From: Parabacteroides sp.
GTDB taxonomy: Bacteria; Bacteroidota; Bacteroidia; Bacteroidales; Tannerellaceae
Reading direction: 5' to 3'
Assembly: GCA_020860905.1 (NCBI GenBank)
Contig: JAJBTJ010000053.1
Span: forward strand, 1 to 37,725
DNA: 37,725 nt
The notes under the pieces are model-generated. The model did not search any database and had not been told where the DNA came from. It saw only the letters and a program-made list of their open reading frames with translations. Below are positions 21,041-37,725 of this stretch, piece by piece (positions within the stretch are counted from its first letter, which is position 1; the number at the start of each line of letters is the position of its first letter). The position numbers and the translations under genes are program-made.

Positions 21041-21934
21041 CTACTGTTTCTTTATAGAAAAATCGGCAAAACGGATTTCCTCGTCACGCAGTTGGTTCTG
21101 CCAACTCCGGTTTTCACCCAAATACCGGTAGATACCCCATTTAGGACGGAGCCCGATGCAATCGGTACGCCACATATCCATTTTTTTCGGGTTGAGTTTT
21201 AAAAGAACTTTTCCGTCTTTCAGGCGTGTAATTACCACTTCGTACGAACCGTTTTCTCCAAAAAGGACTTTTTCTTCTACTTCTACCCAATTTCCTAAGA
21301 AATCGGCCAGGTTGGTACTGGCTAACGTGGTAGTGCCTTCTCCCCGTTTGTCATAACGAACCCGCAATTCTTGTCCTCCTTTATTGCCGGAATAAGCAGT
21401 TAGTGTAAGGAGCGGTGAACCGACATCTGCCGTATTCGCCGGATTGTCGATGCCTTTCAACTGGTGTAAATGTGAGAACTTGGTGGTGGTCTGGAATCCG
21501 GCCGGCAAGCGGAATTTCCAACGGAATACTATCATTTCCCCCGACTGTCCGACCAGGTTTTCCGGAGATTTATTGTCCGTCTTTATCTCATTTCGCTGAC
21601 GATCTGTGATGTTCTCCAATCCCCGGTCGTCGTCTATTGCGGCATGGATAAAAAAGGAAAATACATATTCGTTTAACTGGCTGTCATATACTTGCTGGAT
21701 ATGTTGGAAATGTTTCGTTTGGTGCACCCGTGAAGAATCGGGAGCCTCGTGATTATAGCCGGCACGCTTAATCAACTCGTACGTTTTCTCGTTATTTCCG
21801 TCGGCAATCAAAGTTCCGTCTACGGTTTGTTGTTTGAGCGGAGGGATTTTGTCCATATTTTCCGAAGAGATTTCGGAACAAGCCAAAAGCGCTGCGAAAG
21901 CCAGTAGCGTTAAAAATACAGCTTTTATTTTCAT
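21041..21934 (-). CDS. Jelly-roll polysaccharide lyase-like lipoprotein (heparin lyase I-like)
   Basis: A 297-residue lipoprotein (lipobox LLAC, Cys19), likely on the outer membrane. The body fits a concanavalin-like lyase of the PF14099/heparinase I type: DRQRNEIK (111-118) and FSHLHQLK (153-160, a His-rich substrate-binding strand), then RPKWGIYR (263-270), whose Tyr269 would be the catalytic tyrosine in this fold. Related jelly-roll lyases (PL7, PL13, PL18, PL20) share the R-x-E, Q/H and K-x-G-x-Y pattern. It is the last gene of the PUL, four bases after the esterase, so the inferred substrate is alginate or a related uronan. The exact CAZy family cannot be set by eye. Confidence 0.65.
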   Translation of the reverse strand: MKIKAVFLTLLAFAALLACSEISSENMDKIPPLKQQTVDGTLIADGNNEKTYELIKRAGYNHEAPDSSRVHQTKHFQHIQQVYDSQLNEYVFSFFIHAAIDDDRGLENITDRQRNEIKTDNKSPENLVGQSGEMIVFRWKFRLPAGFQTTTKFSHLHQLKGIDNPANTADVGSPLLTLTAYSGNKGGQELRVRYDKRGEGTTTLASTNLADFLGNWVEVEEKVLFGENGSYEVVITRLKDGKVLLKLNPKKMDMWRTDCIGLRPKWGIYRYLGENRSWQNQLRDEEIRFADFSIKKQ

Positions 21935-21938
21935 GGGG

Positions 21939-22925
21939 TTATTTGATATAGTTTATTAGGAAATCTACCGATTTGAAGAAAATTTCTTCCATCTTATCGG
22001 AGGTTTTTGAACTTACGTTATGGTCATAATATTCATACTTTAACAAGTAGCAAACTCCCCCCTTTTCCGTTAATGCCGTTGCAAACAGTTCACTTTGCTC
22101 GCACTCCACTGTTACGTCGCAGGTTCCACATACTAACATGCAGGCCGGAACCTGCTTTTTCGGAACTAAATGAACAGGGGAGGCTTCACGCAACACATTC
22201 GCGTCCCGGTTACAGAAATAGGCGATGCGTTGAGCGTCTTTGGTATTTCGGATAAGGGACGCTTTTTCCAAATCGTAAATGCCGGAATAACCGACAAAGG
22301 CTTTCGTTCCAGTAGTAGTCATAGCCGCTACAGCCGCCAGGTGCGCCCCGGCCGAAGTACCCAGAAAGCCGAAACAGTCGGGGTTGATATGCAGTTCTGT
22401 TGCATGCGCTTGGATATATTTCACCGCATCCCGGATATCCTGGAGGGAAACCTTTACCGTTACACCGGCCTGTGGCGCTAATGAATAAGAAACACGAACC
22501 CCGGTAATCCCTTTTTGTTTAGCAAGATAGTGCGACAAGGATTTGGATGAACTGTTATTTCCTCGTGCCCATCCGCCTCCGTGGATATAAATTACAAACG
22601 GGGCCGGTTTATCCGTCCTGGCAAAATCAACTGTGAGGGTCAATTCATATGTTTTATGTTTCTTAAAAACGAAATCTTTTGTCGTCACGCCCTTATGGTC
22701 TTTGCTATTTAAACGTTCCGGTTTGTAGGTATAGGGAACCATTCCGTCCGGGAGGGTATCCACATTTATCAATCCGACGTATTTCTTTGCATACACTAAG
22801 GCATACGACCCGTCATCATTTTGCGTCATCTTCATTCCGTAGCGGTTAGATAACTGCTTGGGCGTTTCTTGTGCAAAACAAAAAAAGGAAAACAGGCATA
22901 AGTAAAAAATCAGTTTCAGTTTCAT
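21939..22925 (-). CDS. Secreted alpha/beta-hydrolase esterase
   Basis: A 328-residue protein with a type I signal peptide (cut near FCFA, before QET). After an unusual N-terminal segment of about 90 residues comes an alpha/beta hydrolase of the carbohydrate-esterase-like BD-FAE/HSL group. The oxyanion motif HGGGW is at 115-119, the nucleophile is Ser191 in GTSAGAH, the probable acid is Asp270 (CGTCDVTV), and His302 lies in YYDHN. It should remove acetyl or other acyl groups from a sugar or oligosaccharide. It sits between the PL38-type lyase and the jelly-roll lyase-like gene with gaps of 24 and 4 nt, so it belongs to the PUL. O-acetyl groups occur on mannuronate of bacterial but not seaweed alginate, so a deacetylase role is possible; this is inference. 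Confidence 0.85.
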   Translation of the reverse strand: MKLKLIFYLCLFSFFCFAQETPKQLSNRYGMKMTQNDDGSYALVYAKKYVGLINVDTLPDGMVPYTYKPERLNSKDHKGVTTKDFVFKKHKTYELTLTVDFARTDKPAPFVIYIHGGGWARGNNSSSKSLSHYLAKQKGITGVRVSYSLAPQAGVTVKVSLQDIRDAVKYIQAHATELHINPDCFGFLGTSAGAHLAAVAAMTTTGTKAFVGYSGIYDLEKASLIRNTKDAQRIAYFCNRDANVLREASPVHLVPKKQVPACMLVCGTCDVTVECEQSELFATALTEKGGVCYLLKYEYYDHNVSSKTSDKMEEIFFKSVDFLINYIK

Positions 22926-22949
22926 GCGATTACTGGATTAGGTAAATTC

Positions 22950-24155
22950 TTATTCGTTTTTCTTTAAAACCAGATACAACAGTGTTTCCATATTCGACGA
23001 ACTGTACTTCAATCCGATGTGTTTTGCCGTATCGAGGTATTGGGGGTTATTCAGCGCTATGCCTGCTTCATAAAGCAAGATTGCTGCCCGGGAGGAGTCG
23101 AAAGGTTTGATTTGCTTGAATTTCCAACTTTCCGGATGGAGGTAATAGGGATACAAATACGCTACAGCCTGGGATGCCGCTTTTCCATTTGAAGCAGGGG
23201 TATTCCATAAATTGATTCCTATTTGGCTGGTAATTTGGTTGGCTTCCATCAGCGCTTCTAAGGCAAAAGTAGAATAATGCAAAGAAAGTGTACGTTTTAA
23301 TTCTTGCGGTAGCGAGCCGTCGTCTGCCAACTGTGCCCCTATTTTCGGCAGGATGTTTTGTTCGGCGACTTCCCGGATGCGGTCTGTTCGGTCCAGGTAA
23401 GCTAATACCATCAAGTGGATGGCTTCGTACCATAACCCATGATTGTTTCCGGCGTGCGCTTCTGTTTGCCCCTGCGTACTGTTTTCCATCCAATAACAAA
23501 AAGCGGCAGCCCATTCATCCAGCTTTTTATTGTCCGAAGAAGGCCATCCGGTTGAAAGTTCTATCAGCTTGGCTACTCCTAAGGCACGGCAGAAACGGCG
23601 CGAATCGATAAACCCTGCGGCACGTATTTTTTTTATACCCGGTATGTGTTGGGCATACGTCATATTCGGATTCATACCCAACTTCGAGTCGATAAACCAA
23701 GTTCTCAACAGGTTGGCACACGCGTCGGCATATACTTCTTTCCCGGTGATATAGTAAAGTATTCCCAGGCAAGAAACGGCATCGCCCAACAGGTTCGCAT
23801 TTTCACGTTCCGGATATTCGTAAACTTCCGGATTGCGTTCTCCGTCTTTCCGGATATAAGGCAATCCGTCTGCTTTCGTAGAGTCCGGCCACCAATAGGG
23901 TGCTAAAGTCATATAATCCCTCGGGTCTTTACTGGGAGGAAGTTTCTTTTTGGCCGTTACCGACAATAACGGCATTTTTAGATAGGGCGTTGCCTTTTTT
24001 TCAATAAATTCGATGTATTGATTCACTGATTTATCTCCTTTTTGATAATCCGCCTTTAACTGATCGAGCAACGCCGCGTTAAACGGGCCTAAGGGAGCGC
24101 TTTTCAGTATTCCCCCGCAAAGGCATAGTACCCATACGAAAAAGATTCGTTTCAT
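22950..24155 (-). CDS. Alginate lyase family protein (PL38/PL5-type)
   Basis: A 401-residue secreted protein (signal peptide cut near residue 20) with an alpha/alpha-barrel lyase domain of the Alginate_lyase Pfam type. The catalytic stretch GNNHGLWY contains Asn238 and His239, and R288 with H293-Y294 (RTLSLHYSTFAL) fits the Arg and Tyr of this fold. The substrate motif APYWWPDSTK near 84-94 is typical. These enzymes cleave beta-1,4-linked uronic acid chains by beta-elimination. PL38 is preferred over PL5 because of the PUL context with PL6 and PL17, a combination I recall from gut Bacteroides; activity on glucuronan is an alternative. It follows the SDR by 116 nt, which hold a hairpin. Confidence 0.82.
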   Translation of the reverse strand: MKRIFFVWVLCLCGGILKSAPLGPFNAALLDQLKADYQKGDKSVNQYIEFIEKKATPYLKMPLLSVTAKKKLPPSKDPRDYMTLAPYWWPDSTKADGLPYIRKDGERNPEVYEYPERENANLLGDAVSCLGILYYITGKEVYADACANLLRTWFIDSKLGMNPNMTYAQHIPGIKKIRAAGFIDSRRFCRALGVAKLIELSTGWPSSDNKKLDEWAAAFCYWMENSTQGQTEAHAGNNHGLWYEAIHLMVLAYLDRTDRIREVAEQNILPKIGAQLADDGSLPQELKRTLSLHYSTFALEALMEANQITSQIGINLWNTPASNGKAASQAVAYLYPYYLHPESWKFKQIKPFDSSRAAILLYEAGIALNNPQYLDTAKHIGLKYSSSNMETLLYLVLKKNE

Positions 24156-24197
24156 AATATAGAATAGATAAAAGGATAATATTGTTATTTATTTTAT

Positions 24198-24246
24198 GGA
24201 CGCAAATCCGGCAAATATCCCATAGAACGATGCGGAATTTGCGTCC
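24198..24246. repeat. Intercistronic hairpin in the PUL
   Basis: GGACGCAAAT-CCG (24198-24210) pairs with CGG-AATTTGCGTCC (24233-24246) with one bulge, leaving a loop of 22 nt. No U-run follows on either strand, so it is not a classical terminator. Between SDR and lyase genes it may be a processing or stability element that sets different mRNA levels within the operon. Confidence 0.55.
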
Positions 24247-24271
24247 GGAAAATTGTATGTTGCGGTCTTCT

Positions 24272-25024
24272 TTAAGAAAAGAAGCAACCGCCGTTAATAT
24301 CGATGTTCGTACCGGTGAGGTAGGAAGATTCGGAACAGGCCAGGAAACAAACCAAGTCGGCTATTTCTCCGGCCGTACCTTCCCGGCGCAGGGCATACGA
24401 GGCTTTCATCCGTTCGCGGTTTTCGGGCGTATTGAAGCGGTCGTGGAAAGACGTAGCGATTGTACCCGGACAGATGGCATTGCAACGGATTCCCTGCGGG
24501 CCGAGTTCTTTCGCCATAGAACGGGTAAATGTCATCACCGCGCCTTTTGCTGCGGCATACATCGAAGCTCCGTTACCGCCTCCGTCGCGTGCGGCCAACG
24601 ATGAAAAGTTAATGATGGCACCTCCTTCTGACATCATCGGAACAGCTTCACGGGTACAGAGGAATACGGAGCGCATGTTTACATCCATCAGGAAATCGTA
24701 CCAGGCTTCGTCCTGTTCGGTAATTTTTTTACGGCCTACAATCCCACCTACTACGTTTACCAATACATCGACCTTTTCGCCGAAAGCCTGGTTACATTCG
24801 GTAAAAAGATGTTTCACCTCGGCAGCCTTGGTCATGTCGCCTTGAACGGCAATCGCTTTGCTTCCGGTTTTTTTAATCAATTCCAACGTCTCCTGTGCAT
24901 CGGAGGCATTATCAAAGTAGTTTATACACACATTAGCTCCTTCTGCCGCTAATTTTATTGCCACAGCGCGTCCTAAGTCACGTGCGCCACCGGTTACAAC
25001 GGCCACTTTTCCTTTTAATTTCAT
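24272..25024 (-). CDS. SDR oxidoreductase, probable DEH reductase
   Basis: A 250-residue classical short-chain dehydrogenase. It has the cofactor motif TGGARDLG (11-18), NVVGG at 90-94 in place of NNAG, catalytic Ser141/Ser142, and Tyr156-x3-Lys160 (YAAAK), and ends with the usual TGTNIDINGG. In alginate loci an SDR of this type reduces 4-deoxy-L-erythro-5-hexoseulose uronate (DEH) to 2-keto-3-deoxy-D-gluconate, which is the inferred role here from position next to KdgF, the permease and three lyases. A 3-oxoacyl-ACP reductase (FabG) is the usual confusion, but no fatty acid genes are near. It is cytoplasmic, 22 nt after the MFS gene. Confidence 0.85.
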   Translation of the reverse strand: MKLKGKVAVVTGGARDLGRAVAIKLAAEGANVCINYFDNASDAQETLELIKKTGSKAIAVQGDMTKAAEVKHLFTECNQAFGEKVDVLVNVVGGIVGRKKITEQDEAWYDFLMDVNMRSVFLCTREAVPMMSEGGAIINFSSLAARDGGGNGASMYAAAKGAVMTFTRSMAKELGPQGIRCNAICPGTIATSFHDRFNTPENRERMKASYALRREGTAGEIADLVCFLACSESSYLTGTNIDINGGCFFS

Positions 25025-25046
25025 GATTGATTTGTTTTAAAAAAGT

Positions 25047-26513
25047 TTATTTATCGAGTTGTTTAATTTCTCCTACAGTTAAAAATACAGCGCCTAACGA
25101 TAGTGGTACTAAAGCACTTAACAGGCTGAATAATAAAATCCAGTTTGTAATATAACTGGCAAAAAGAATCGCTAAAATAGTGCCCAGTACAGCCGCAGTA
25201 CCTCCCAAGCCTGCCAACGAACCTACCGATTTGCCGCAGTGCAAGTCGCTCGGAATCGTTTGTAAGTTTGTTATAAAAAACTGGAAGCCTCCCAGTACGA
25301 GCGCCATAAAGAAAATGGCTACCGGAACGGAAGTCGACAGAATGGCGGCCAGAATAGACGGAACGATAATCAGTCCGCCGAGCAACATGGCTGCTTTACG
25401 GGCATAATTCACCGTGTGTCCCCTGTGTATCAGCCAACCGGAATACCATCCTCCGGCCACACTTCCCAACGCCGCGCCCACATAAGGAACCCAAGCGGAA
25501 AATGCCACTTCTTTTATATTCAGATGGAATACGTCGGCAAGGTAGAGCGGCAGGAATGTAACGAACATCCACCAGATAGGATCGAGGAAGAACCTTCCCA
25601 GAATAACCGACCAATTCTTTTTTACCCGCAACAATTCGCCCCAGCTTTTGCCCTTATCTTCCGATTTTAACTCCTTTTCGGGTTGGCCGCTCAAGATATA
25701 CGTGCGTTCTTCTTTTGTAATCCAGGGATGTTTTTTCGGACCTTCCTTATTAACAATCAGCCAGGGAATTAGCCAAATCAGCCCTAAGGCGCCGACTACC
25801 ACGAACGTAACCTGCCAGCCAAAAGCGATGAATAGCATCAAGATGATAATCGGAGCCAGGATAGAACCGATGGAGGCAGCAGCACCGAACAATCCCTGAG
25901 CGAAAGCACGTTCTTTCTGCGGGAACCACTCTGCATTGCTTTTCGTCGTACCCGGCCACGGACCGGCTTCGCCCAATCCCAACATCATCCGGCAGCATGT
26001 CAACGAGAAAATACCTCTCGAAAGAGATGCCAATGCATCCGCTGTTCCCCATACGAGTACGCTCCAAAAGAATCCCTTCCGGCATCCGATTTTATCATAG
26101 AGCTTTCCGGAAACAAGCTGGCTGATACCGTATGCTATCATAAAGAAGATTGTTATCCATCCCAATAAATCTTTGGCTTTCTGCGAAGCATCCGGATCAT
26201 TCCGGTCTATCAACCCGAGGTCGATGGCAATCCCTTCGCGGTTGGTGACGAACGTAACGCCCTCTTTCTCCTTTAGCTGTACAGCAGATGCTTCTATGAA
26301 ATTTTTCTTTCCGTTGGCTGCTGTCAGGATATATTGCCTGCCCTCTAATACGGCCCGGTTGCCTTTAACATTCCGGGCTTCGGTTTCAGATACAAGCCGG
26401 TAGTCGATATTCGCTACCCACATATAGTTGAGCGTACCCCTGTCTAAGTAGTTGATAACGGTTACCAGCATGATTAATCCGATAACTATCCATCTGACTC
26501 CTTTTATCTTCAT
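25047..26513 (-). CDS. MFS permease, hexuronate type, with a large first loop
   Basis: A 488-residue inner-membrane transporter of the anion:cation symporter group (ExuT/GudP-like). It has VINYLDRGTLNY in helix 1 and GLGEAGPWPGTTKSNAEWFP. The ORF track starts at an ATG inside the cupin gene. The correct start is the ATG at 26513, where MKIKGVRWIVIG begins and overlaps the cupin stop as ATGA, giving translational coupling. About 85 residues lie between helix 1 and helix 2 (roughly 30-118), much longer than usual, so the protein carries a small extra periplasmic region. It should import unsaturated uronate or DEH released in the periplasm. The assignment of family is firm and that of substrate comes from context. 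Confidence 0.9.
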   Translation of the reverse strand: MKIKGVRWIVIGLIMLVTVINYLDRGTLNYMWVANIDYRLVSETEARNVKGNRAVLEGRQYILTAANGKKNFIEASAVQLKEKEGVTFVTNREGIAIDLGLIDRNDPDASQKAKDLLGWITIFFMIAYGISQLVSGKLYDKIGCRKGFFWSVLVWGTADALASLSRGIFSLTCCRMMLGLGEAGPWPGTTKSNAEWFPQKERAFAQGLFGAAASIGSILAPIIILMLFIAFGWQVTFVVVGALGLIWLIPWLIVNKEGPKKHPWITKEERTYILSGQPEKELKSEDKGKSWGELLRVKKNWSVILGRFFLDPIWWMFVTFLPLYLADVFHLNIKEVAFSAWVPYVGAALGSVAGGWYSGWLIHRGHTVNYARKAAMLLGGLIIVPSILAAILSTSVPVAIFFMALVLGGFQFFITNLQTIPSDLHCGKSVGSLAGLGGTAAVLGTILAILFASYITNWILLFSLLSALVPLSLGAVFLTVGEIKQLDK

Positions 26514-26863
26514 ACTGTCGGGTGCATTAAGAAATCGGCCCGTACAGGGCTGAACGTATCGATCAACAGCCCGGCTTCCAGGCAAACACATCCGTGCCGT
26601 TCGTCGGGAGCCACGTAATAACCGTCGCCTGCGGAAAGAATTTCTTTTTTGTCACCTATGGTAAGTTCGAATTTTCCGCTTGCTACGTAAGTCGCCTGGC
26701 TATGATAATGTTCGTGCATGCTACCTACCGCTCCTGTGTCGAATTTTACTTTTACCATCATCAGCTGTCCGTCGTAAGCCATAACCTGACGATTTACTCC
26801 CGGGGCCGGATTCTCCCATTTCAATTTTTTTTCAAACTGAAAAATTTCACTCCTTGTTTTCAT
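26510..26863 (-). CDS. kdgF: KdgF-type cupin, unsaturated uronate ring-opening enzyme
   Basis: A 117-residue single-domain cupin. The metal ligands follow the KdgF arrangement: His50, His52 and Gln56 in MHEHYHSQATYV, and His90 in PDERHG. KdgF speeds conversion of 4,5-unsaturated monouronates from pectin or alginate to the linear keto form. It would act on the PL17 product before reduction by the SDR. It has no signal peptide, so it is cytoplasmic, which agrees with the permease following it by a 4-nt overlap. It lies 122 nt after PL17, where I see no promoter box. A generic sugar-binding cupin is the alternative. Confidence 0.85.
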   Translation of the reverse strand: MKTRSEIFQFEKKLKWENPAPGVNRQVMAYDGQLMMVKVKFDTGAVGSMHEHYHSQATYVASGKFELTIGDKKEILSAGDGYYVAPDERHGCVCLEAGLLIDTFSPVRADFLMHPTV

Positions 26864-26985
26864 ACTTTTATCTATTAAAGGTTCGTGTTGTTATCTATAT
26901 AGGTTGTATCCTGTAAAAAGCATGGATAACCGGCTACACTTGCCGAAGCTGTAAAAAACTGTGCAACGCCAATTTTAGTTAGTCT

Positions 26986-29193
26986 TTATTTTATAAAAAC
27001 TCCGCAGCGTCCGTTCCAGGTATAAACCATACCTTCGATGGTAACGCTATGTTTATTTTCCGTTCCGTCATCCGGATTGCTCAGACAGAGGGTTACGGAA
27101 TGCCTTTCCTTATAAGTAGCTCTGATAACTGTATAGGCCGGAGTGTCCGTCACTACTTTTACCTCTTCACACGAAGAAGTCAGGTTGCACGAGGTTTCCA
27201 TACGTACGTCGTAATCCCCGTGTGTTTCGATAGACGTGGCGAACGTATGCTTTTTCCGTCCTTTTTCCCTTATCAGAAAAGCTGTTTCGTTTCTCAGATT
27301 AAAATCGGGGTCGTTGGCTCCCAGCCGCAGTATCATCAACTCCGTTTGCGGAGTAGTAGCCGTGCTGAGGGTATAAAACCGGTTCCGGTTAAAAAAGGTA
27401 AAACGGGAAGTATTCTGATTTTCATTATGTCCCCAGGCTTCCACCCATAGATGCTGGTACCCGTTCTTGGTTCCAAGCGTTTTCGATTCGTTCTTTGCTT
27501 TGTTATAAGGAAAGTTTACAGAAACGAATTGCCCGTTATACCAGAACGGATAATCGTATTGGTGTTCCCCGTTTGAAGTTGCCTGTACTACATCCAAGAT
27601 AAGGGGAAATTGGAGGAAGGGGGTGGGGATGTAGGCTAATGTGCGTCTCATTTCTACTCCGGGATACGCATGGGTTTCTTTTGCAACTATCACCTGGAAG
27701 TTCTTTCCTTCAAGATTGCTGTAAACGATGTCCGAATGGTATCGGGAAGAAACCTGAATATCTCCGTTGAAATGAGTGGTTTCATCTACCGTCAAGGTGT
27801 TGTGGGCAATCGTTTGTTTAGCAAATGTCCGGTTTTCGTTCGTATAATGCCCTTTGTTTTTCGCCTCGATGTTGAGGAAACGCGAAGCGCCGTAATCTGC
27901 CAGAATCTCGTTTCCGTTGTCATAATAGGCCATGGTGAGCTTATCGAAATGGCCGTGACTTAGTCCGTGGGAGCTAGCTTTGAGAGTCAGGGCGCTATTC
28001 AGTTTCGGGTCGGTCGAACGGATTACGGCAATGCCCCCTTCATTGCCATTGCGGCCGTCACGGAATACGCCGCTACGATACACTACCGGAATAGCCTTTC
28101 CCAGAGCGATATCCCGGGCTACCCGGAACCCTCCGATGGTAGGCAAATAAGCGTGTTGATATGCCTTTGCCACGGATAACAGCGATTTATCCTCCGGATA
28201 ATGGTTATACAGAATATCGACCGCATAAACCAATTCTTGTGCCGACAACCCTTTCTGCAACGCATCGTTGATATGAAAAAATTCTCCTTCATACGAAAGT
28301 TGTATCAATGTGGTAAGCGCTTTTAAGAGAATACCGTCGCGGTAATTGAAGATTTGCAATTCCGGCATTTTATGTTCGATGCATTGAGCAAAAATAACGA
28401 ACGGCCAGATAGCGTACCGTTGATAATATGCACCCTCGGTGAAATACCCGTCTGGAGAAAACAGATAATCCATCTGACGGATAAAGCCTCCCCGTTTCCC
28501 GGTTCCATCCGAGCCGTAAAGCGCCTTTTTTACATACTCTTCCCGGTTCGTCACTAAACCCGTCATGCCGACGGCTGCCGTAGCCCATGTAGCATGGTTG
28601 TGCATTTTATTAAAAGTCTTGTTATTAGCACAGTTGCCGTCCATCCCCTCCATAATGAAATCGGCCATCGGGGTAAACAGGTTCTTTTCGATGATAGTAC
28701 GCTGTTGTGTTGAAAGGGTGCTATAAATACAATCGTAGGCTATTGCCGTATGTACCAGCCATACGCTTTCGTTCAAGGTTTGCCAAAACAGGCGGCCGGG
28801 AACAGGCGAAAGCCGTACCGGGTGAAATCCCAGTGTAGGATACAGTTTCGCATAAGCTTCCAGCATATCTGCCACATACTGGGCATATTTCTTTTCGCCG
28901 GTTAACTGATAAGCGATTCCGCAATGGAACATAGCATAATAATTCGATTTATGTTGTTCATGCACCGCACCTCCGCCGCCATCCACGGGTACCGGAACAG
29001 AAATAGGAACATTTATCGCTGCATCGGCCGCGCTCAGCACTTCCGACACCGATTGATCGAATGCCGGCACCGTTCCCTTCTCCGCCCTGATTTCTTCCAC
29101 TTCTCCCCGGGTGAAGAGGAGCGACAGATGTTGGGCGAATGGGCAGAGGCAACCTTCCAGCACGAAGAATAGACCGATAACAAATCTTTTCAT
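26986..29193 (-). CDS. PL17 oligoalginate lyase (heparinase II/III-like)
   Basis: A 735-residue exported protein with a signal peptide ending near residue 20 (CPFA-QHL; an imperfect lipobox LEGC is also possible). An N-terminal alpha/alpha toroid with Asn199-His200 (MHNHATW) and GYFTEGAYYQRYA (Tyr257, Arg259 as catalytic candidates) is followed by a beta-sandwich heparinase II/III-type domain with SHGLSHGHFDKL, IAHNTLTVDE and DYGASRF. The spacing agrees with the PL17 exolyase Alg17c as I remember it (N201, H202, Y258, R260). PL17 exolyases release unsaturated monouronate from alginate oligomers, mainly poly-mannuronate. It starts 7 nt after PL6. A heparin or chondroitin lyase is less likely in this context. 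Confidence 0.9.
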   Translation of the reverse strand: MKRFVIGLFFVLEGCLCPFAQHLSLLFTRGEVEEIRAEKGTVPAFDQSVSEVLSAADAAINVPISVPVPVDGGGGAVHEQHKSNYYAMFHCGIAYQLTGEKKYAQYVADMLEAYAKLYPTLGFHPVRLSPVPGRLFWQTLNESVWLVHTAIAYDCIYSTLSTQQRTIIEKNLFTPMADFIMEGMDGNCANNKTFNKMHNHATWATAAVGMTGLVTNREEYVKKALYGSDGTGKRGGFIRQMDYLFSPDGYFTEGAYYQRYAIWPFVIFAQCIEHKMPELQIFNYRDGILLKALTTLIQLSYEGEFFHINDALQKGLSAQELVYAVDILYNHYPEDKSLLSVAKAYQHAYLPTIGGFRVARDIALGKAIPVVYRSGVFRDGRNGNEGGIAVIRSTDPKLNSALTLKASSHGLSHGHFDKLTMAYYDNGNEILADYGASRFLNIEAKNKGHYTNENRTFAKQTIAHNTLTVDETTHFNGDIQVSSRYHSDIVYSNLEGKNFQVIVAKETHAYPGVEMRRTLAYIPTPFLQFPLILDVVQATSNGEHQYDYPFWYNGQFVSVNFPYNKAKNESKTLGTKNGYQHLWVEAWGHNENQNTSRFTFFNRNRFYTLSTATTPQTELMILRLGANDPDFNLRNETAFLIREKGRKKHTFATSIETHGDYDVRMETSCNLTSSCEEVKVVTDTPAYTVIRATYKERHSVTLCLSNPDDGTENKHSVTIEGMVYTWNGRCGVFIK

Positions 29194-29200
29194 TTTACGT

Positions 29201-31462
29201 TTATCTTTTCAATCCGATAGAAAGCCTTTCCAGTTCACTACCCGCAGCCGGAGTATAGTCGTAGGCTTCGGCTGCGGTATAAACCGGTTGGATGTTGTAC
29301 ATTTTCCCTTGTATTGCCCCAGGCGTAGTCGTTATGATTTTGCCGGAGTTCCAACAGTTACAACGAGTGATACATATCTTTTCCCAGGTTGCTTCATCCA
29401 GCCGGATGGATGCCCCTCCGCGACCGCTGCCGTCGAAATTGCAATTCGCGACCGTCAGTATTTGGGGCCCAATCAGGCGCATTACGCTACCTCGTTCTTT
29501 ATTGCAGCAATCTACAAAGTTACAGTGAGTGATAGTTACATACGGACCGGCTGTGCTTTCGTCGCTTCCTCCCCGGTAAATATGGATAGATAACCCCAGT
29601 AACCGGTAGAAAGAACAGTTTTCAATCCGTATATCCTCTGCATTATAGCGGCCTATATCGTCTTTTTCGGCAGCATAACTGATAGCATCTCCGGATAAGT
29701 TGCGAAATAAGCTGTTGCGGATGGTAATGCTTTCGGCAAAAGTCCCTTTGGTTGCTTTGATAGCAAAGAAACCGCCTTCCCCGAAATTCAGGAATTTGCA
29801 ACCGTCTACGGTTAATGCATAAGGCTGTATCATATCCCTTGCCGTAGAGATTCCGGCTTTTGCCAACGCCTTTCCCGGTTCTAACATGCCGTCGAATACG
29901 ATGTTCTCGATTACGAGTTCACTCCCGTCCGCCAGGGTTACCATATTATCCGGCTTGATGCCATTGAAACGGATAACCGGTTTGTGAGTCGCATCAGCGG
30001 CACGAATCGTCAACGGCTTATCGATTTGCAGGGAGTGTTGGATGAGATAGGTACCTTTCGCTACGAGAATAATGCCGCCCGGTTCAGCCGCGCAGATTAT
30101 TTCAGCCAAATCGGCATCGGGAGAAACCCGATATTCTTTCCGTATCCTGTCCGGCTCCTTCTTTACCTGGTTAGCAAACCAGGATGCACCCTTATCTTTG
30201 CGCAGCACGGCTTCGGAAGGCAACGGGGGAATTGCGCTTTTTTCCGTAGTGAATCCCGGAGCCGGATACGCCCCGGCCAACTGTACTTTGTTTCCTTCAA
30301 ATCGAATCCCCGATACGTCATCTACTGCCAAATACGGTTTGTCAGCCTGTTTATTGACAATTACATTATCGGTAAACGACACATGCGCCGGGGGAAGGGT
30401 GCGTTCCAAATCCTTACCCGTTCCGAATTCGATATTCGCACAATCCACAAACGTGTTACGATATATCTTTACATCGAGCACATGGCAATACCGGTTGGGT
30501 AACGAATTAGGCACACCGTTCATCACGCCTAATGCAGAGAAAAAACGAGTACCGGCCAACCCTACCAGCAGGTTGTCGTAAATCCGGTGTCCTGCATTAA
30601 CTACGCGGATACCCCCCGTGTTCCGCCTCCCGTGTCCGATAAATAAATTATTGTTTACCGTATTCCGGTCACCATGCCGCAAGGCTACCACTCCCTCACA
30701 TTCCAGTAAAACATTGTTCCGCACTACATTATCGCTGGATTTGATGGAAATTACTTCCACTTCGCCGGAGCAACGTTCAAACAAGTTGTTTTCAATTACC
30801 GTATTCGACGAACTGTATGCTTGCTGGGAAGTTCCCACCCGGATGGTTTCGGCTCCGTTGGAACCGTAAACCGGCCGCTCGCCGAAATAATTGTGGTCTA
30901 TCCGGTGATGGTTCTCCAGGCAGCGTTTATCGTTGAGGATTACAATCAAAGTCACTCCTAAATTCAGTTTTCCTGTCAGCGAACAATGATCTATCCGGTT
31001 GTGTTGTCCGTAAAGCAGGATATAACTATACGCCTGGTCACGGCGGAGCGGATTGAATCCGTCTATCACGCAATCCGTCAAACGGCAATGATTCGCCAAC
31101 GCAGTGCCATTGCGGAATTCGATAACAGCCCCTTTCGGGGTATGGCCGTTCGTAAAAAACAGTCCGTCGATACACATCCATTCGCCCGCTATCCGTAAAA
31201 ACGAAGCACCTTCTATCTTCACTTTCCCCGGATTCAATGCCTTTATCGTAACCGGCGCTTCCGCCGTTCCATTTGCCGTCCATTTTAACTGCATGTTTTT
31301 GTACTGGCCGTCTTTGATATAAATCCGGTCGCCCGGTTGCGCCGTTTTCAGGCAGGCAGCCACTTCCGGCAGCGTTACTTCGTATCTTTCTGCGAAACTT
31401 ATTGCCGGTATGCTGAAAAACAGTATCGCTATAAGTATCGTATGCATATTTTGTACTTTCAT
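29201..31462 (-). CDS. PL6 alginate lyase, two-domain parallel beta-helix
   Basis: A 753-residue secreted protein (signal peptide cut near SFA, before ERYEV). Residues about 25-420 form the catalytic right-handed beta-helix of the chondroitinase B/alginate lyase family; residues about 440-750 are a second beta-helix. NGAETIRVGTS (202-212) is the PL6 signature. Asn202, Glu234 and Glu236 would bind calcium, Lys241 acts as base and Arg262 as acid. The spacings 32, 2, 5 and 21 equal those of AlyGC (N181, E213, E215, K220, R241) as I recall them. It should cut alginate, often at guluronate-containing sites, into unsaturated products. It starts 3 nt after the glycan-binding gene and is followed closely by PL17. 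Confidence 0.93.
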   Translation of the reverse strand: MKVQNMHTILIAILFFSIPAISFAERYEVTLPEVAACLKTAQPGDRIYIKDGQYKNMQLKWTANGTAEAPVTIKALNPGKVKIEGASFLRIAGEWMCIDGLFFTNGHTPKGAVIEFRNGTALANHCRLTDCVIDGFNPLRRDQAYSYILLYGQHNRIDHCSLTGKLNLGVTLIVILNDKRCLENHHRIDHNYFGERPVYGSNGAETIRVGTSQQAYSSSNTVIENNLFERCSGEVEVISIKSSDNVVRNNVLLECEGVVALRHGDRNTVNNNLFIGHGRRNTGGIRVVNAGHRIYDNLLVGLAGTRFFSALGVMNGVPNSLPNRYCHVLDVKIYRNTFVDCANIEFGTGKDLERTLPPAHVSFTDNVIVNKQADKPYLAVDDVSGIRFEGNKVQLAGAYPAPGFTTEKSAIPPLPSEAVLRKDKGASWFANQVKKEPDRIRKEYRVSPDADLAEIICAAEPGGIILVAKGTYLIQHSLQIDKPLTIRAADATHKPVIRFNGIKPDNMVTLADGSELVIENIVFDGMLEPGKALAKAGISTARDMIQPYALTVDGCKFLNFGEGGFFAIKATKGTFAESITIRNSLFRNLSGDAISYAAEKDDIGRYNAEDIRIENCSFYRLLGLSIHIYRGGSDESTAGPYVTITHCNFVDCCNKERGSVMRLIGPQILTVANCNFDGSGRGGASIRLDEATWEKICITRCNCWNSGKIITTTPGAIQGKMYNIQPVYTAAEAYDYTPAAGSELERLSIGLKR

Positions 31463-31465
31463 GGT

Positions 31466-33152
31466 TTAGTGCACTTTAGAGTAATCGTAATCATGTTTTT
31501 GCCAGTAAATATCGAATTCGACGGAACTCGAAGAAGGAGCGTTGGTATTATTGTACAGTTTAAAATCGACGGTTTTTATATGTAACAGTCCGATACGCTT
31601 GATATTCGCGGCTACATTTGCCGTTGAACCGTTCACATTGTAATATAATATGAGTAATACAGCATCCGCATTCGCCTTTTTTTCCTTTCCGGCTTCAAAT
31701 ATTGCCGGCGCCCAAGTGTCGGTATTCAAGGAAGTTTTCATACTCGAAATACTGAATCCCCGGCATGTTTTGGCATCGATGTCTATCGGAAACGTAGTTT
31801 CGTCAATCGTGGTCAACGTACCGTTTTTCACTTCCTCAACCAATGCTTTATAAGCCGATTTCGAGGAATCCAAATACAAGAAAGTCAACACAGGCGTACC
31901 GTAGCAATTTCCGTTGCTTCCTGTTATCCGGGAATCGTTCGACGAATTATTCATGATATAGAAATTCTTAAGCTGTCCGCTGGAACCTGCTGGACTGTTA
32001 ATTTGTAACTGTCCGGCATTCACTCCGGAGAAGAAAAAATACGGATTTACCGAATTGTATTCTTCTTCCGGAACAGCCGGTTTATTATTGGCCGAACAAG
32101 TGGCGACCTGGTGCTTATAGGATACCGGGTCGATTCGTTCTCTCCAATCGGCATTTGCGTACGCTTGTCCGGTTTCCGGTGAAAAGAACGACGACAGTTC
32201 GTCTACATCCCGCCCTTGTGCATACACTTTCTTGTTTTCCCAGAAATATACCAAAGGTACTTTTACTACGAACTGTTCTGTCAGAATCGGTTCCTCGCGT
32301 CCGTCGAAGTAAGAAATCTTTAGGGGTAGGGTATTGTCGCCGTCTGCATACTGTTCCGACGACGGCACGATAAATTCCAACCGGGTTTCACTCTGAAGAG
32401 TAATGCTGCATTCGATGTTTCCTACTGCTACTTTATCGATTTTATTTAAGTAAGTACCTTCCAACGCCACTACATCCCCTACTTTTGCAGGAGTAAAAGT
32501 AGAAGTGGTTACTTCCGGTTCATACCGTTTCACCGTCATCTGTGAGGCGGAAGCAACCGGAGTTTCTACTTCTTGTGTACCGTTAAAATACTTGAAGGTA
32601 ATCCCTGCTTTTTCACTCTCTACATACGGAATTTTCACCAGGATTTCCTTTTCATCCTGCGAAAGGATAGGCGCTTCGTTACCCGTAACCTGCCCTTCGG
32701 CCGTAAAAAGAACCGCACGGATTACCTGCATGTGAACTCCTCGGAGCAGCAATTTATTTCCCATTTCCACCTCGGCGGGCATCCCGGTTTCCGTAAGGAC
32801 AGGAGCCGGGTATTCCATGGTAAAATCGGCTTCCGATGCCCCTTCGCCTACCGAATTGGTCAGCGTAATTTTTCCGCTTTTTTGCATTGCTCGTTACTTT
32901 TAACGAAAGGCGGCGGTCGGATACCTTTTGAAGAATCATTACTTTTTCGCCTCCCATCGTTGCACTCACCACATCGTCCAGGTGTTCGCCGCTAATTACT
33001 ATTTCGCTGCCGGTACTGCCGGTTTCGGGCGAGAAGGAAAGAATTTGCGGGGCATTAGCCGTAATTTCTTTCATATATACCATATCGCAAGCGCTATAGA
33101 CGATAACGCCTGCCAGTAAACAGGCAAAACTCCATTTTTTATATCGTTTCAT
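31466..33152 (-). pseudogene. Surface glycan-binding lipoprotein with TIG domains, frameshifted
   Basis: The reading frame starts at 33152 with a lipoprotein signal (VIVYSAC) and a first IPT/TIG domain, then leaves frame in a run of six A (minus strand; T6 at 32878-32883). The ORF at 31466-32887 continues the same protein in the next frame. With one A fewer the join reads RLSLKVTSNA-KSGKITLTN without a gap. The full protein would be about 560 residues: three TIG domains (roughly 30-110, 115-200, 205-290) and a C-terminal beta-rich carbohydrate-binding part. Position after SusD is that of a SusE/F-like surface glycan-binding protein for alginate. As written the product stops after 132 residues. 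A real mutation, phase variation or a homopolymer sequencing error are all possible. Confidence 0.85.
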
Positions 33153-33263
33153 ATCTGCATAATTTATTTTTTAACAACCAGGCTACCGCAAACTCGTTTG
33201 TTCCTTTTTTTCAGACATATTCTTACGGTGTGCCCGTTTCCTGTTCGCATTCGTTTTAAGAAA

Positions 33264-34781
33264 TCAATATCCTGTATTTTGCGCTATCTCCGGATTGATA
33301 TTGATTACACTTACCGGAATGGGGAGAAGGGTCTGCCAATCGGCAATCTCGTTCACCGTGTACGAATATTCCGAGTAGAACGATTCGCTTTTGAGGTAGT
33401 TATTTACGGTCGGGGCGGCAATTCCCCAACGGAGCAGGTCGAACCATCGTTGGTTTTCAAAAGCAAGTTCCAGCCTTCTTTCATTCCGCACCGCTTCTCT
33501 GAAATCATAGCGGTTGGAAAGATCGGCCAGCGTATAACCCGGAACGCCGGCCCGTTCGCTAATCATATTCAAGTACTTCAGGTTATCGTCGGACGGCCCT
33601 GAAAGCTCGTTCGTTACTTCGGCATACAGCAAGGCGATATCCCCGACGCGGATAACCGGCCAGTCGCTTTCCCCGTCATACTGCGTACTGACCGGGTTCG
33701 TGTATTTCTTGCAGTAACGGCAATTGCCCGTTGTTACCCATTCCCGGGTAGTTGAATTGTAATACTTGCGGGCGATATTCACGTCGAGCCGTTTCTCTCC
33801 GTTTCCTCTGGTTTCGTAAGCGGAAATAACGTTGTCGGAAGGAGTATTGTACCCTAAAGAAGCGCCGATAATCACGTTGGCTCCATTATTGACCGGAGCG
33901 AACATATTGCCGAAGGGCGAACCGAGGCCTACATTCCCGGAAAGGTAACGGGCTGCGAAGATGATTTCTTTATTCATCTCGTTCGAGATATCGAATATCT
34001 TGTCATAAGGTACCAGGTCGGCCCCTGTCTGGGGATTTCCTACGGCAGCGCTTTCCAACACTTCCTTGCATAATCGGGCTGCCTGGGCATATCGGGCGTC
34101 TGCAGAAGAATAATGCGTGGCATACACTTTGGCCAACAGCGCTTTTACCGCATTCCTGTCGGCACGCCCTTTATCCGCATCCGCCATTTGTTCGGGCAAT
34201 AACTGATTATCTAAAATAGTTTCCAAATCGCTTTCAATCAATCCGTACACCTCTTCCACGGTAGAGCGTTGCATGTTGCGGGCTACCTCCGACGGGATTT
34301 TGGAAGTAACGATAAATACTGGCCCCCATAAACGAACCAGATTAAAATATTCCAGCGAACGAAGAAACAGCGCCTCCGCCTCGTACTGGTTCCGGAGCGT
34401 TTCATCTGCCACTATATCTAAGTAGGAAAGTACGTTATTTGCCCGGGCGATGGTAGCATAGCAAGCACTCCAGTAATTTTCCACCCATTGATGTTCGGCC
34501 ACGATAGTACCCTGATCCAGTTGTTCGACCAATTTGGTGGTACTGGCCGACGAACCCGTAGCATACATACGTCCGTTGTCCGAACGCAATTCCGTCATCG
34601 CCCATTCATAATACATTACGTCGTGAAGGGAATTATAACAACCCATTACCAGGTTGTTCACCGACGAAGCATCTTTCACATACTTGTCTGCCGCCACTTC
34701 CGAATAAGGATATTTGTCCAGGTTGCAGGCTCCAACCAGCAACAACATTACCAGCCATCCTGTATAATTTATTTTTTTCAT
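33264..34781 (-). CDS. SusD-like outer-membrane glycan-binding lipoprotein
   Basis: A 505-residue SusD/RagB family protein. The true start is the ATG at 34781 (MKKINYTGWLVMLLLVGAC), giving a lipobox with Cys19; the longer ORF runs back into susC. TPR-like helices and the family endings RNERRLELAFENQRWFDLLRWG and LLPIPVSVININP are clear. It caps the SusC pore and captures oligosaccharide at the cell surface. It begins 13 nt after the susC stop codon, so the two are coupled. The substrate is inferred as alginate from the lyases downstream. The 111-bp gap after it shows no gene. Confidence 0.96.
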   Translation of the reverse strand: MKKINYTGWLVMLLLVGACNLDKYPYSEVAADKYVKDASSVNNLVMGCYNSLHDVMYYEWAMTELRSDNGRMYATGSSASTTKLVEQLDQGTIVAEHQWVENYWSACYATIARANNVLSYLDIVADETLRNQYEAEALFLRSLEYFNLVRLWGPVFIVTSKIPSEVARNMQRSTVEEVYGLIESDLETILDNQLLPEQMADADKGRADRNAVKALLAKVYATHYSSADARYAQAARLCKEVLESAAVGNPQTGADLVPYDKIFDISNEMNKEIIFAARYLSGNVGLGSPFGNMFAPVNNGANVIIGASLGYNTPSDNVISAYETRGNGEKRLDVNIARKYYNSTTREWVTTGNCRYCKKYTNPVSTQYDGESDWPVIRVGDIALLYAEVTNELSGPSDDNLKYLNMISERAGVPGYTLADLSNRYDFREAVRNERRLELAFENQRWFDLLRWGIAAPTVNNYLKSESFYSEYSYTVNEIADWQTLLPIPVSVININPEIAQNTGY

Positions 34782-34794
34782 CGTTCGTTTTCCA

Positions 34795-37725
34795 TTAAAA
34801 GTTAATTTCAAATCCAGCGGAAACAGTCGCAGTGAGCGGGAACCCGCCACGCTGATACCCTGAAATCATCGCACTCGAATAGGCCGAAGAAGTCATCCGG
34901 GATTCCGGATTAATCCCTTTGTAGCTGTTTCCCCAGAGGTAAAACAAGTTACTCCCCGACAGATAGAAACGTACGCCGGATAATCTTATTTTCGATGCGG
35001 CTGTTCCCGGCAGCGTATATCCGAAGGTGAAGTTCCTCAAACAAGCATACGAAGCATTTTGCAACGGATAGTCGGTGAGGCAAAGATCATATCCTAATTT
35101 CAGGTACGGCGTTTTTCCGTTTCCCGGATATTCGGTGCTTACCCAACGATTTTCCGTATAAGCCTTGTTCCATTTCACCGTTTCATTATAGTAAACGTCG
35201 CCATTGTAAACGGTAATTCCCTGTACTCCCTGGATTAAAAACGAAATATCGAAATTTTTAACTTGGAACGTATTCGTAATTCCCCAGGTAAAATCGGGAT
35301 ACGGCTTGCCCAACGGCACCCGGTCGTCGGGAGTTAAAAAGCCGTCTTTGTTTGTATCCACGATACGCAAACCGCCCGGTACGTCGTTAGAGAAATGCGG
35401 ATTCGCCTCGATTTCCTCTACGCTGTTCCATACGCCGTCGGTCTTATATCCGTAGAACTGAATTAACGGCGAACCTACTTTCGCGATATAACATTCGCTT
35501 CTTTCCCCCTGGTTGATTACCTGTTGTTCACCTCCCAGTTCGAGTAATTTATTGCGTGAAAGCGAAAAGTTTATATTGGTATCCCATGAAAACTTACGGT
35601 TTTTAATCAGATGCGTATCGATTTGTATTTCCACTCCGGAATTACGCACTTTCCCGATATTGTTCCAATAATACTTGTAGCCGGTAAACGATTGGGTAGG
35701 CTGTTCGAACAACAGCGCGCGGGTAACCGAATAATACACGTCAGCCGAAAGATTTATCCGGTTATTGAAGAATCCCAAATCCAGGCCATAATTGAATTCG
35801 TCCGTCTTTTCCCAGGTAATATGCGGATTAGCCAACGTAGAAGAGATATTCGCCGAACCCGATACCAATTGTCCGTTCCCGGTGCCCGTTACGTAATTAG
35901 CGCCGTTCAGCACTTCGAGTGCGGCATCGTAATCGATCCGGTTATTCCCCGTTACGCCGTAAGAAGCACGCAGTTTCAAATTGGATATAAATTTGGCATC
36001 CTGCATGAACTTTTCTTCGTTTATACGCCAACCCACCGATACGGAGGGGAACCAGGCATTCCGGTTTCCTTGTGAAAACAAGGAAGAACGGTCTAAGCGC
36101 AACGAAGTAGACAATAAATACCGTCCGAGGTAATTGTAATTGATACGTCCCAGGTACGATTCCAATACTACATCGGGGTAGCGGAAAGTTCCCGTACCAG
36201 CCGTATTTCCGTTTCCTTCGCCCGCCAATGAATAAACGGTAGCTGCATTCAGCGTATGGATATCATCGGTTGCAAACCCTGTTGCCGTCATGGCTACCCG
36301 TTGGTTCCGCGTTGTTTCTACCGTGTATCCCAGCAAAGCCTCTATGCCATGCGAATTATTCTTTCCGAAATTGACAAGGTAATTCAATGTATTTTCGCTC
36401 AATAAGTCAACATATAGCGTACTGAAATAAGTGGCCTGGCTTTCTTCCTTGTCTTTCGTCGCATCTTTATTACTGTAAAAATAAGAAGGATTGAAACGGA
36501 TATTTAACCCATTCGACGTTTTGAATTGTAATCCTTTACACAAATCTACCGTAAGATACATGCTTACCAATCCTTGCATGGATTCGCTCCAACGAATCGT
36601 ATTGTCCATCACGCTCCGCGGATTGTTATTGGCCGATGAGAAAGGCGAAGATTTTTCTACGGTCGGATTCCCGTCTGCATCCGGCGTTCCGGTAGGTGTG
36701 AGGATATTATTGAAATCGCTCCCTCTTGCGAACCCGGAATAACCCGTTAATTCCGAACTGTAATCGTTATGATAGATGGGGAGAAACGACGGAGTGCGGT
36801 AAAAGTCTATAAAATTATTTTTCGGACGTTGAGTTTTCGTGTACGTTCCCGACAAGTTTACTCCGATACCCACCCTTTTTGAAAGCCGGGTATCTAATTT
36901 GGTGCGGAAATTCAATTTATCCAATGAGTTTTGGAGCATAATTCCCTGGTCTTTGGTGTAAGCCGCCGAAATAAAATACTTGGTATCTTTGCGTCCCCCC
37001 GAAACACTCATCTGTACATTCGTGATACCCGCTAAATTGCGCAACCCTTCTTTCTGCCAATCGGTAGTTCCCATCTGGCTTTCCAAGTATGCCGCTCCGC
37101 GGGCCGCAGCCGGTACCGACGGCCCTCCTTTTCCCATCTCCTCGGTCAACAGGGTAAGCCATTCGGAGGAAGTCATCATATCGTGTAATTGGTAAGCATA
37201 TTTAAATCCCTGATAATATTTGAAAGAATATTTCGGTTTGTCGGGCGTACCGGTTTTGGTAGTTACCATGATAACCCCGTTGGCGGCACGCGATCCGTAA
37301 ATAGCGGCCGAAGCTGCATCTTTCAGGATTTCGATGGATTGCACGTCGGAAGCATTGATAGAAGAAAGGCCGCCGGCCACAGGAAAACCGTCGAGGATAA
37401 CCAACGGTTCGCTTTCGGCGGAGATAGAGCCTGTTCCGCGTATACGGATAGACGGCGTCACCCCCACTTCCGATGTTTCGTTGGAAACCGAGAGCCCGCT
37501 CATGGAACCTTGCAAAGCAGTAGTTACATCACTCACCGGAGCGTTAATCAGCGCCTTGCCTTCCAGTTTCGAAATAGAACCGGTTAAATGCGATTTCGCT
37601 TGTGTACCGTAACCGATTACCACTACTTCGTCTAAGAGTTTTTGGTCTTCGTCCAGCATGACGTTTACCACTGTACGTTTGCCCACAGCCTCTGCTTTGC
37701 CGGTATAGCCGATATAAGAAAAGAC
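34795..37725 (-). CDS. SusC-like TonB-dependent transporter (5' end outside window)
   Basis: A partial gene; 977 codons are visible and the frame stays open to the right edge. The first visible residues, VFSYIGYTGKAEAVGKRTVV, are the end of the carboxypeptidase-D-like N-terminal domain, so the signal peptide and most of that domain are missing from view; the GTG at 37686 given in the track is not the start. The plug domain follows (DEVVVIGYGTQAKSHLTGSI, IRGTGSISAESEPLVILDGFP, SIEILKDAASAAIYGSRAANGVI), and then the 22-strand barrel ending GFEINF. It imports oligosaccharides across the outer membrane using TonB, in complex with SusD. Confidence 0.96.
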   Translation of the reverse strand, partial: VFSYIGYTGKAEAVGKRTVVNVMLDEDQKLLDEVVVIGYGTQAKSHLTGSISKLEGKALINAPVSDVTTALQGSMSGLSVSNETSEVGVTPSIRIRGTGSISAESEPLVILDGFPVAGGLSSINASDVQSIEILKDAASAAIYGSRAANGVIMVTTKTGTPDKPKYSFKYYQGFKYAYQLHDMMTSSEWLTLLTEEMGKGGPSVPAAARGAAYLESQMGTTDWQKEGLRNLAGITNVQMSVSGGRKDTKYFISAAYTKDQGIMLQNSLDKLNFRTKLDTRLSKRVGIGVNLSGTYTKTQRPKNNFIDFYRTPSFLPIYHNDYSSELTGYSGFARGSDFNNILTPTGTPDADGNPTVEKSSPFSSANNNPRSVMDNTIRWSESMQGLVSMYLTVDLCKGLQFKTSNGLNIRFNPSYFYSNKDATKDKEESQATYFSTLYVDLLSENTLNYLVNFGKNNSHGIEALLGYTVETTRNQRVAMTATGFATDDIHTLNAATVYSLAGEGNGNTAGTGTFRYPDVVLESYLGRINYNYLGRYLLSTSLRLDRSSLFSQGNRNAWFPSVSVGWRINEEKFMQDAKFISNLKLRASYGVTGNNRIDYDAALEVLNGANYVTGTGNGQLVSGSANISSTLANPHITWEKTDEFNYGLDLGFFNNRINLSADVYYSVTRALLFEQPTQSFTGYKYYWNNIGKVRNSGVEIQIDTHLIKNRKFSWDTNINFSLSRNKLLELGGEQQVINQGERSECYIAKVGSPLIQFYGYKTDGVWNSVEEIEANPHFSNDVPGGLRIVDTNKDGFLTPDDRVPLGKPYPDFTWGITNTFQVKNFDISFLIQGVQGITVYNGDVYYNETVKWNKAYTENRWVSTEYPGNGKTPYLKLGYDLCLTDYPLQNASYACLRNFTFGYTLPGTAASKIRLSGVRFYLSGSNLFYLWGNSYKGINPESRMTSSAYSSAMISGYQRGGFPLTATVSAGFEINF

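Follow-up and report, generated by a model that had tools for sequence, protein, structure and literature searches.

The esterase gene at positions 21939-22925 (minus strand) of the window, by which we mean the whole 37,725-nucleotide stretch of Parabacteroides sp. DNA analyzed here, is a dedicated component of alginate loci and has been co-inherited with them in at least two gene orders. This assignment is based on a linkage survey, on co-occurrence with PL17 lyases, and on gene fusions. Because the esterase family is near-exclusive to gut alginate loci and is fused to a locus protein in one genome, the enzyme most likely acts on alginate, and the removal of O-acetyl groups from mannuronate is the activity that we regard as reasonably, though far from securely, probable.

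The open reading frame encodes 328 amino acids from an ATG start and contains no internal stops. It is not a chance frame, since full-length homologues at 44-80% identity occur in about 40 genomes. The product scored above the Pfam cut-offs for BD-FAE (PF20434; E=1.8e-27, 96.7 bits with a cut-off of 26.8) and Abhydrolase_3 (E=1.5e-19, 71.1 bits with a cut-off of 25) and fell below those of the NCBIfam equivalogs (acetyl esterase, AxeA1, LipP1, and others), for which the best score was 70 bits against 350. It is made up of a putative signal peptide (residues ~1-20), a conserved N-terminal segment (~21-80), and an α/β-hydrolase core (82-328). On inspection, the N-terminus, MKLKLIFYLCLFSFFCFAQE, resembles a signal peptide, and orthologues begin with comparable hydrophobic stretches. 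An earlier note, made from the sequence alone, had described an esterase with a full catalytic set; this description held, as the HGGGW motif (His115-Gly-Gly-Gly-Trp119), Ser191, Asp270, and His302 were identical in 38 of 38 aligned homologues at 43-80% identity. The protein is apparently a secreted, non-lipoprotein serine esterase with a Ser-His-Asp triad and an HGGG oxyanion motif.

Structure prediction, proposed in the earlier note as a check, agreed with the Pfam profiles in assigning an α/β-hydrolase fold. The AlphaFold2 model had a mean pLDDT of 90.6, with the first core strand at residues 82-89, and residues 21-80 were ordered as well (10-residue blocks with mean pLDDT of 85-94). The N-terminal extension, previously given as 90 residues long, is a conserved trait of the family but is shorter than stated, consisting of an apparent signal peptide of ~20 residues and ~60 ordered mature residues. 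Within this segment, Asn27, Tyr29, Met31, and Asp38 were invariant in the alignment of the esterase family, and the paralogue that this genome carries on contig C266 lacks the whole segment. Members of the esterase family share an R-x-x-Y-F motif (233-237) that neither BD-FAE nor the in-genome paralogue has; its residues (R233-x-x-Y236-F237) are candidates for uronate binding. The paralogue (L107, G000:C266, 475-1857) has 460 residues and, by eye, combines an α/β-hydrolase half with an SGNH-like half; a large protein encoded directly after it also seems to include an SGNH-like part.

The placement of the esterase in an alginate locus was borne out by its neighbors, which form a minus-strand run in the order SusC, SusD, TIG, PL6, PL17, KdgF-like, MFS, SDR, PL38, esterase, and jelly-roll protein. 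The run begins with a SusC-like TonB-dependent transporter (34795-37686; TIGR04056, 2.5e-214), a SusD-like protein (33264-34850; PF07980, 9e-37, and PF14322), and a TIG-domain protein of surface glycan-binding-like character (31466-32887; PF01833, 4.1e-05). These are followed by a PL6 lyase of the chondroitinase B family with DUF4957 (29201-31462; PF14592, 3.7e-114), a PL17 oligoalginate lyase (26986-29193; NF042990 olalg_lyase at 1.1e-205, under the equivalog cut-off, with PF07940 and PF05426), a KdgF-like cupin assigned by position and conservation (26510-26863), and an MFS transporter (25047-26513; PF07690, 3.4e-45), whose frame is open to 26591 with a likely start at 26513. An SDR reductase (24272-25024), by context a DEH reductase, was identified by a profile match and is a conserved neighbor in related loci. 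Homologues of the KdgF-like protein adjoin PL17 and MFS in 30 of the 42 esterase loci described below, and the KdgF-MFS-SDR gene order matches a published description (PMC11381880). The PL38-type lyase (22950-24155; PF05426, 4.6e-85; E=8.2e-220 to the PDB 8bdq/9fht-type 'alginate lyase family protein') is separated from the esterase by exactly 24 nt and the jelly-roll gene (21041-21934) by exactly 4 nt, the gaps originally reported. The G+C content of the locus (21041-37686) is 45-48%, compared to 48-55% for most of the remaining window, and neither the esterase nor PL38 was found elsewhere among 125 genomes of the family, other species of the genus included. The lower G+C content and the lack of these two genes in other sampled family members suggest that the locus was gained by transfer.

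Linkage was surveyed by scanning 84,980 species genomes with the window esterase. This yielded 42 full-length orthologues at 44-80% identity, all of them in Bacteroidales, below which identity dropped sharply to ~32% or less, mostly in partial-length matches. Thirty-six of the 42 orthologues have two or more core genes of an alginate locus within ~10 kb, and a further five adjoin a jelly-roll gene on short contigs or in rearranged loci; the one with neither neighbor (L047) is a paralogue from a genome that has another copy, the first (L022), in an alginate locus. PL17 was a neighbor in 29 of the 42 loci, PL6 in 25, and PL38 in 10, and PL17 was present in 14 of the 15 esterase genomes checked. 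The exception, B. finegoldii L007 (9498-11884), retains intact genes for the esterase and the jelly-roll protein behind a truncated PL38 and is, to judge by its sequence, the broken remnant of a decaying alginate locus. When 393 genomes were sampled evenly across the order, 11 had PL17 and two had the esterase, both among those 11; the 382 genomes without PL17 contained no esterase. The survey that the earlier note had recommended thus showed that the esterase is conserved in gut alginate loci and nearly exclusive to them (36/42 and 0/382).

The orientation of the gene differed between lineages. In Bacteroides and Prevotella loci, the esterase and the operon share a strand; most loci of Alistipes and of uncultured Bacteroidales have the esterase inverted, with the jelly-roll gene on one side and the lyase operon on the other. 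It is also present in the Bacteroides loci L009, L020, and L097, whose gene order is that of the B. ovatus CP926 locus. Chance neighborhood is ruled out by the orthologue survey, and operon hitch-hiking by the retention of the gene on the opposite strand in another lineage. According to genome record titles, the family belongs mostly to animal-gut Bacteroidales, with members from ruminant, horse, rabbit, and human gut, and it is found in alginate loci of rumen Prevotella and Bacteroidales (L011-L016 and others). One Bacteroidaceae genome (G554) had a PL17 locus with no α/β esterase within the region examined. Six rumen alginate loci (L037-L040, L044, and L046) encode tandem secreted DUF4957-like proteins of ~650 residues, flanked by the esterase and jelly-roll genes and by the SDR gene.

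The jelly-roll partner was identified from its predicted fold and a sub-threshold Pfam match (PF14099, 27.4 bits, under the cut-off of 29.9), and a comparison with PDB sequences gave no useful match. The best fold matches of its model (pLDDT 88.4) were ulvan lyase, heparin lyase I, PL14 and PL7 alginate lyases, and glucuronan lyase, so the protein probably either acts as a lyase or is a binding domain derived from one. It has a lipobox-like cysteine near the N-terminus, and alignment of the window protein (21041-21934) with its homologues revealed invariant DRQRNEIK, HxHQ, and KWGxYR motifs; the family may possibly be a new lyase family. In Alistipes timonensis (L019, 10001-11875), a single 624-residue frame without a stop joins an esterase (residues 1-332) through a Pro/Ala/Lys-rich linker to a jelly-roll domain (383-624). 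A second jelly-roll gene directly follows this fusion. A fusion of the jelly-roll domain with a PL6 lyase, ~1,100 residues long, occurs in three rumen genomes (L012, 2514-5825; L013, 11012-14326; L014, 10899-14279). As the jelly-roll domain is the shared fusion partner, esterase and alginate lyase are tied to one substrate.

Other esterases were also found in alginate loci. A separate BD-FAE-type clade is represented in L088, L089, and L104; in L088 (16857-19715) and L104 (1794-2765, at a contig end), these esterases have long N-terminal modules and lie at the end of the alginate locus. SASA (CE20-like) esterases occur in L023, L024, L025, L026, L028, L029, L088 (15296-16840), and L100 (2925-4502), several of them directly beside a window-type esterase, and because of this repeated adjacency the two types may be complementary. 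A CE20 enzyme is also known from the alginate locus of B. eggerthii (PMC11381880). That unrelated esterases have joined alginate loci more than once suggests that the natural substrate does carry an ester.

Marine loci showed a different pattern. A search of 68 marine flavobacterial PL17 genomes turned up no orthologue of the window family (best match 32% identity over partial length), and the L089 type was present at 53% identity or more in seven of the 68, in four of these within 12 kb of PL17. When α/β esterases were counted, 8 of 13 assessable Bacteroidales PL17 loci had one, compared to 4 of 68 marine flavobacterial genomes (Fisher p ~1.5e-5), or 5 of 10 (p ~0.001) after removal of genomes possibly entered through the esterase itself, a rough habitat contrast given unequal contig ends and the non-independence of related genomes. 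The pattern would fit a substrate met on land, for example, soil or plant bacterial alginate in herbivore feed, and may equally be due to descent.

Bacterial alginate is O-acetylated at O-2/O-3, and the acetylation shields it from most alginate lyases (PMC4444821). Deacetylation is our best guess for the esterase because acetyl is the sole ester with a well-documented source that we found on alginate. We considered that the locus could function as follows. The SusC, SusD, and TIG proteins would capture alginate or large fragments of it, which PL38 and the jelly-roll protein would cleave. The esterase would strip O-acetyl groups at O-2/O-3 of mannuronate, which would otherwise block most lyases; PL6 and PL17 would then bring the chain down to unsaturated monouronate, to be converted and taken up by KdgF, MFS, and SDR. 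The cell could in this way use acetylated bacterial alginate besides plain seaweed alginate. Loci of the PL6/PL17/PL38 type do serve for growth on seaweed alginate; since that alginate carries no acetyl, the esterase would not be needed on it. Weighing against deacetylation, sequence cannot separate acetyl from other acyl groups or alginate from another uronan, the protein has at most ~22% identity to the nearest solved structures and is distant from every characterized sugar deacetylase, and so few marine flavobacterial PL17 genomes (4/68) have a linked α/β esterase.

The target of the esterase could instead be another acetylated uronan, above all the β-1,4-glucuronan of soil bacteria, which would make the locus a mixed alginate/glucuronan system. 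Acetylated glucuronan has to be considered as a substrate because CUL-I and TpPL38A, the PL38 enzymes characterized first, both act as glucuronan lyases (PMC9029943) and bacterial glucuronan is acetylated at C-2/C-3 (PMC10180729); in its predicted fold, the jelly-roll partner also resembles PL20 glucuronan lyase, among others. We nevertheless judge this explanation unlikely, as the esterase is also found with the alginate lyases PL6 and PL17 in loci where PL38 was not seen (PL38 in 10 and PL17 in 29 of 42 loci), and the window PL38 is closely related to a solved Bacteroides PL38, with BoPL38 reported to be an alginate lyase (PMC11381880). The same low probability is given to cleavage of another alginate ester, such as phenolic or acyl esters of the algal wall, uronate lactones, or carboxyl esters like those of food propylene glycol alginate. 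The firm link of the esterase to alginate loci would be compatible with this, and BD-FAE relatives also cleave feruloyl esters (PMC8165983). However, the family extends to the gut of ruminants, horse, rabbit, and human, beyond hosts fed seaweed or additives, and it lacks orthologues in the marine flavobacterial PL17 genomes, where algal-wall esters should count most.

Pfam membership in BD-FAE, together with the promiscuity often found in BD-FAE-type enzymes, leaves a small chance that the protein is a general hemicellulose-type acetyl/feruloyl esterase located here by accident. Two observations speak against it: orthologues occur almost nowhere outside alginate loci, and the family forms a long-stem clade apart from the xylan BD-FAE proteins in a tree that was built with a short search, has several long branches, and was used for clade separation only, not for deep branching. 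That the esterase is catalytically irrelevant, a degenerate or structural passenger of the operon, is highly improbable, given the invariance of the catalytic residues in 38 sequences at 43-80% identity and the retention of the gene through inversion and rearrangement.

Deacetylation of alginate bears on a debate over where the alginate loci of gut bacteria came from, and on what substrate they naturally act, in animals whose diet never includes seaweed. The occurrence of the esterase family in rumen Prevotella, Alistipes, Bacteroides, and other Bacteroidales reopens the substrate question, and an alginate-locus esterase hints that gut clusters can use acetylated bacterial alginate besides that of seaweed. 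B. ovatus CP926, which has PL6, PL17, and PL38, grows on alginate (PMC11381880), and rumen Prevotella alginate loci respond to kelp (PMC13377030). The latter paper, from 2026, found carbohydrate esterases absent from its rumen alginate-associated genomes, read this as a specificity differing from bacterial alginate, and reported that most PL6 enzymes assayed digested brown-seaweed alginate inefficiently (PMC13377030). Inefficient digestion would fit another preferred substrate, along with other explanations. The rumen loci in which we found the present family come from collections other than the one used in that paper. A broader proposal, which we put forward tentatively as possible rather than probable, is that O-acetylated bacterial alginate is what the alginate loci of terrestrial gut and rumen Bacteroidales are adapted to, with the esterase family as an unrecognized deacetylase of breakdown, seaweed use as a by-product, and the reported absence of rumen esterases as a blind spot in the annotation of carbohydrate enzymes. 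Such a deacetylase, combined with lyases, would be a candidate aid against the acetylated alginate matrix of biofilms. In the literature collection searched for alginate deacetylases and esterases, two papers were returned, a PsmE review and a paper on seaweed polysaccharide extraction. Two things were already known: that the SGNH N-module of PsmE deacetylates alginate, and that some alginate loci hold homologues of BD-FAE. The near-exclusive tie of a separate esterase family to gut alginate loci, the esterase-jelly-roll and jelly-roll-PL6 fusions, and the contrast with marine loci are new.

Among solved structures, the closest fold to the esterase is that of Thermogutta terrifontis Est2 (5AOC; E=2.3e-18, TM 0.64/0.75, 22% identity). 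Because the aligned region starts at residue 86 of the esterase and residue 19 of the Est2 chain, nothing in Est2 corresponds to the N-terminal segment. Est2 and the hormone-sensitive-lipase-type carboxylesterases are not locus-linked carbohydrate esterases. BD-FAE (PDB 6TKX/6XYC; PF20434) is, like the window esterase, an α/β-hydrolase with a Ser-Asp-His triad encoded inside a polysaccharide locus, and it is secreted, as the window esterase apparently is. It is a feruloyl/acetyl xylan esterase of Bacteroidetes xylan loci that deacetylates acetylated glucuronoxylan and is, according to its authors, an unclassified carbohydrate esterase (PMC8165983). The window esterase is only distantly related to it (E=5.4e-8 to 6XYC over residues 109-219), its family falls in a separate long-stem clade of the tree, and it has the extra conserved N-terminal segment. 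Membership in the xylan BD-FAE clade is ruled out by the tree and by neighbors that are of the alginate, not the xylan, type.

The 2021 BD-FAE paper notes, in passing, 29 BD-FAE homologues in alginate-targeting loci (PMC8165983). The L089 type is, like the window esterase, an α/β esterase adjoining PL17, SDR, and MFS genes, but it is only ~27% identical to the window esterase, belongs to another clade, is present in marine bacteria, and matches 6XYC far better (E=4.7e-26 versus 5.4e-8). The published alginate clade of BD-FAE is probably the L089 type and not the window family. The CE20/SASA enzymes are predicted acetylesterases that share the alginate-locus setting of the window esterase; they belong to the SGNH/SASA family and are unrelated to it in sequence and fold. 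An SGNH alginate deacetylase of the PsmE type or a CE20 enzyme is ruled out, the esterase being an α/β-hydrolase by profile and predicted fold. The N-module of PsmE from Pseudomonas syringae is an alginate deacetylase that strips acetyl from alginate (PMC4444821), the activity proposed here, but it has a predicted SGNH fold, is part of a secreted epimerase, and serves alginate production, whereas the window esterase is an α/β-hydrolase that would serve alginate breakdown.
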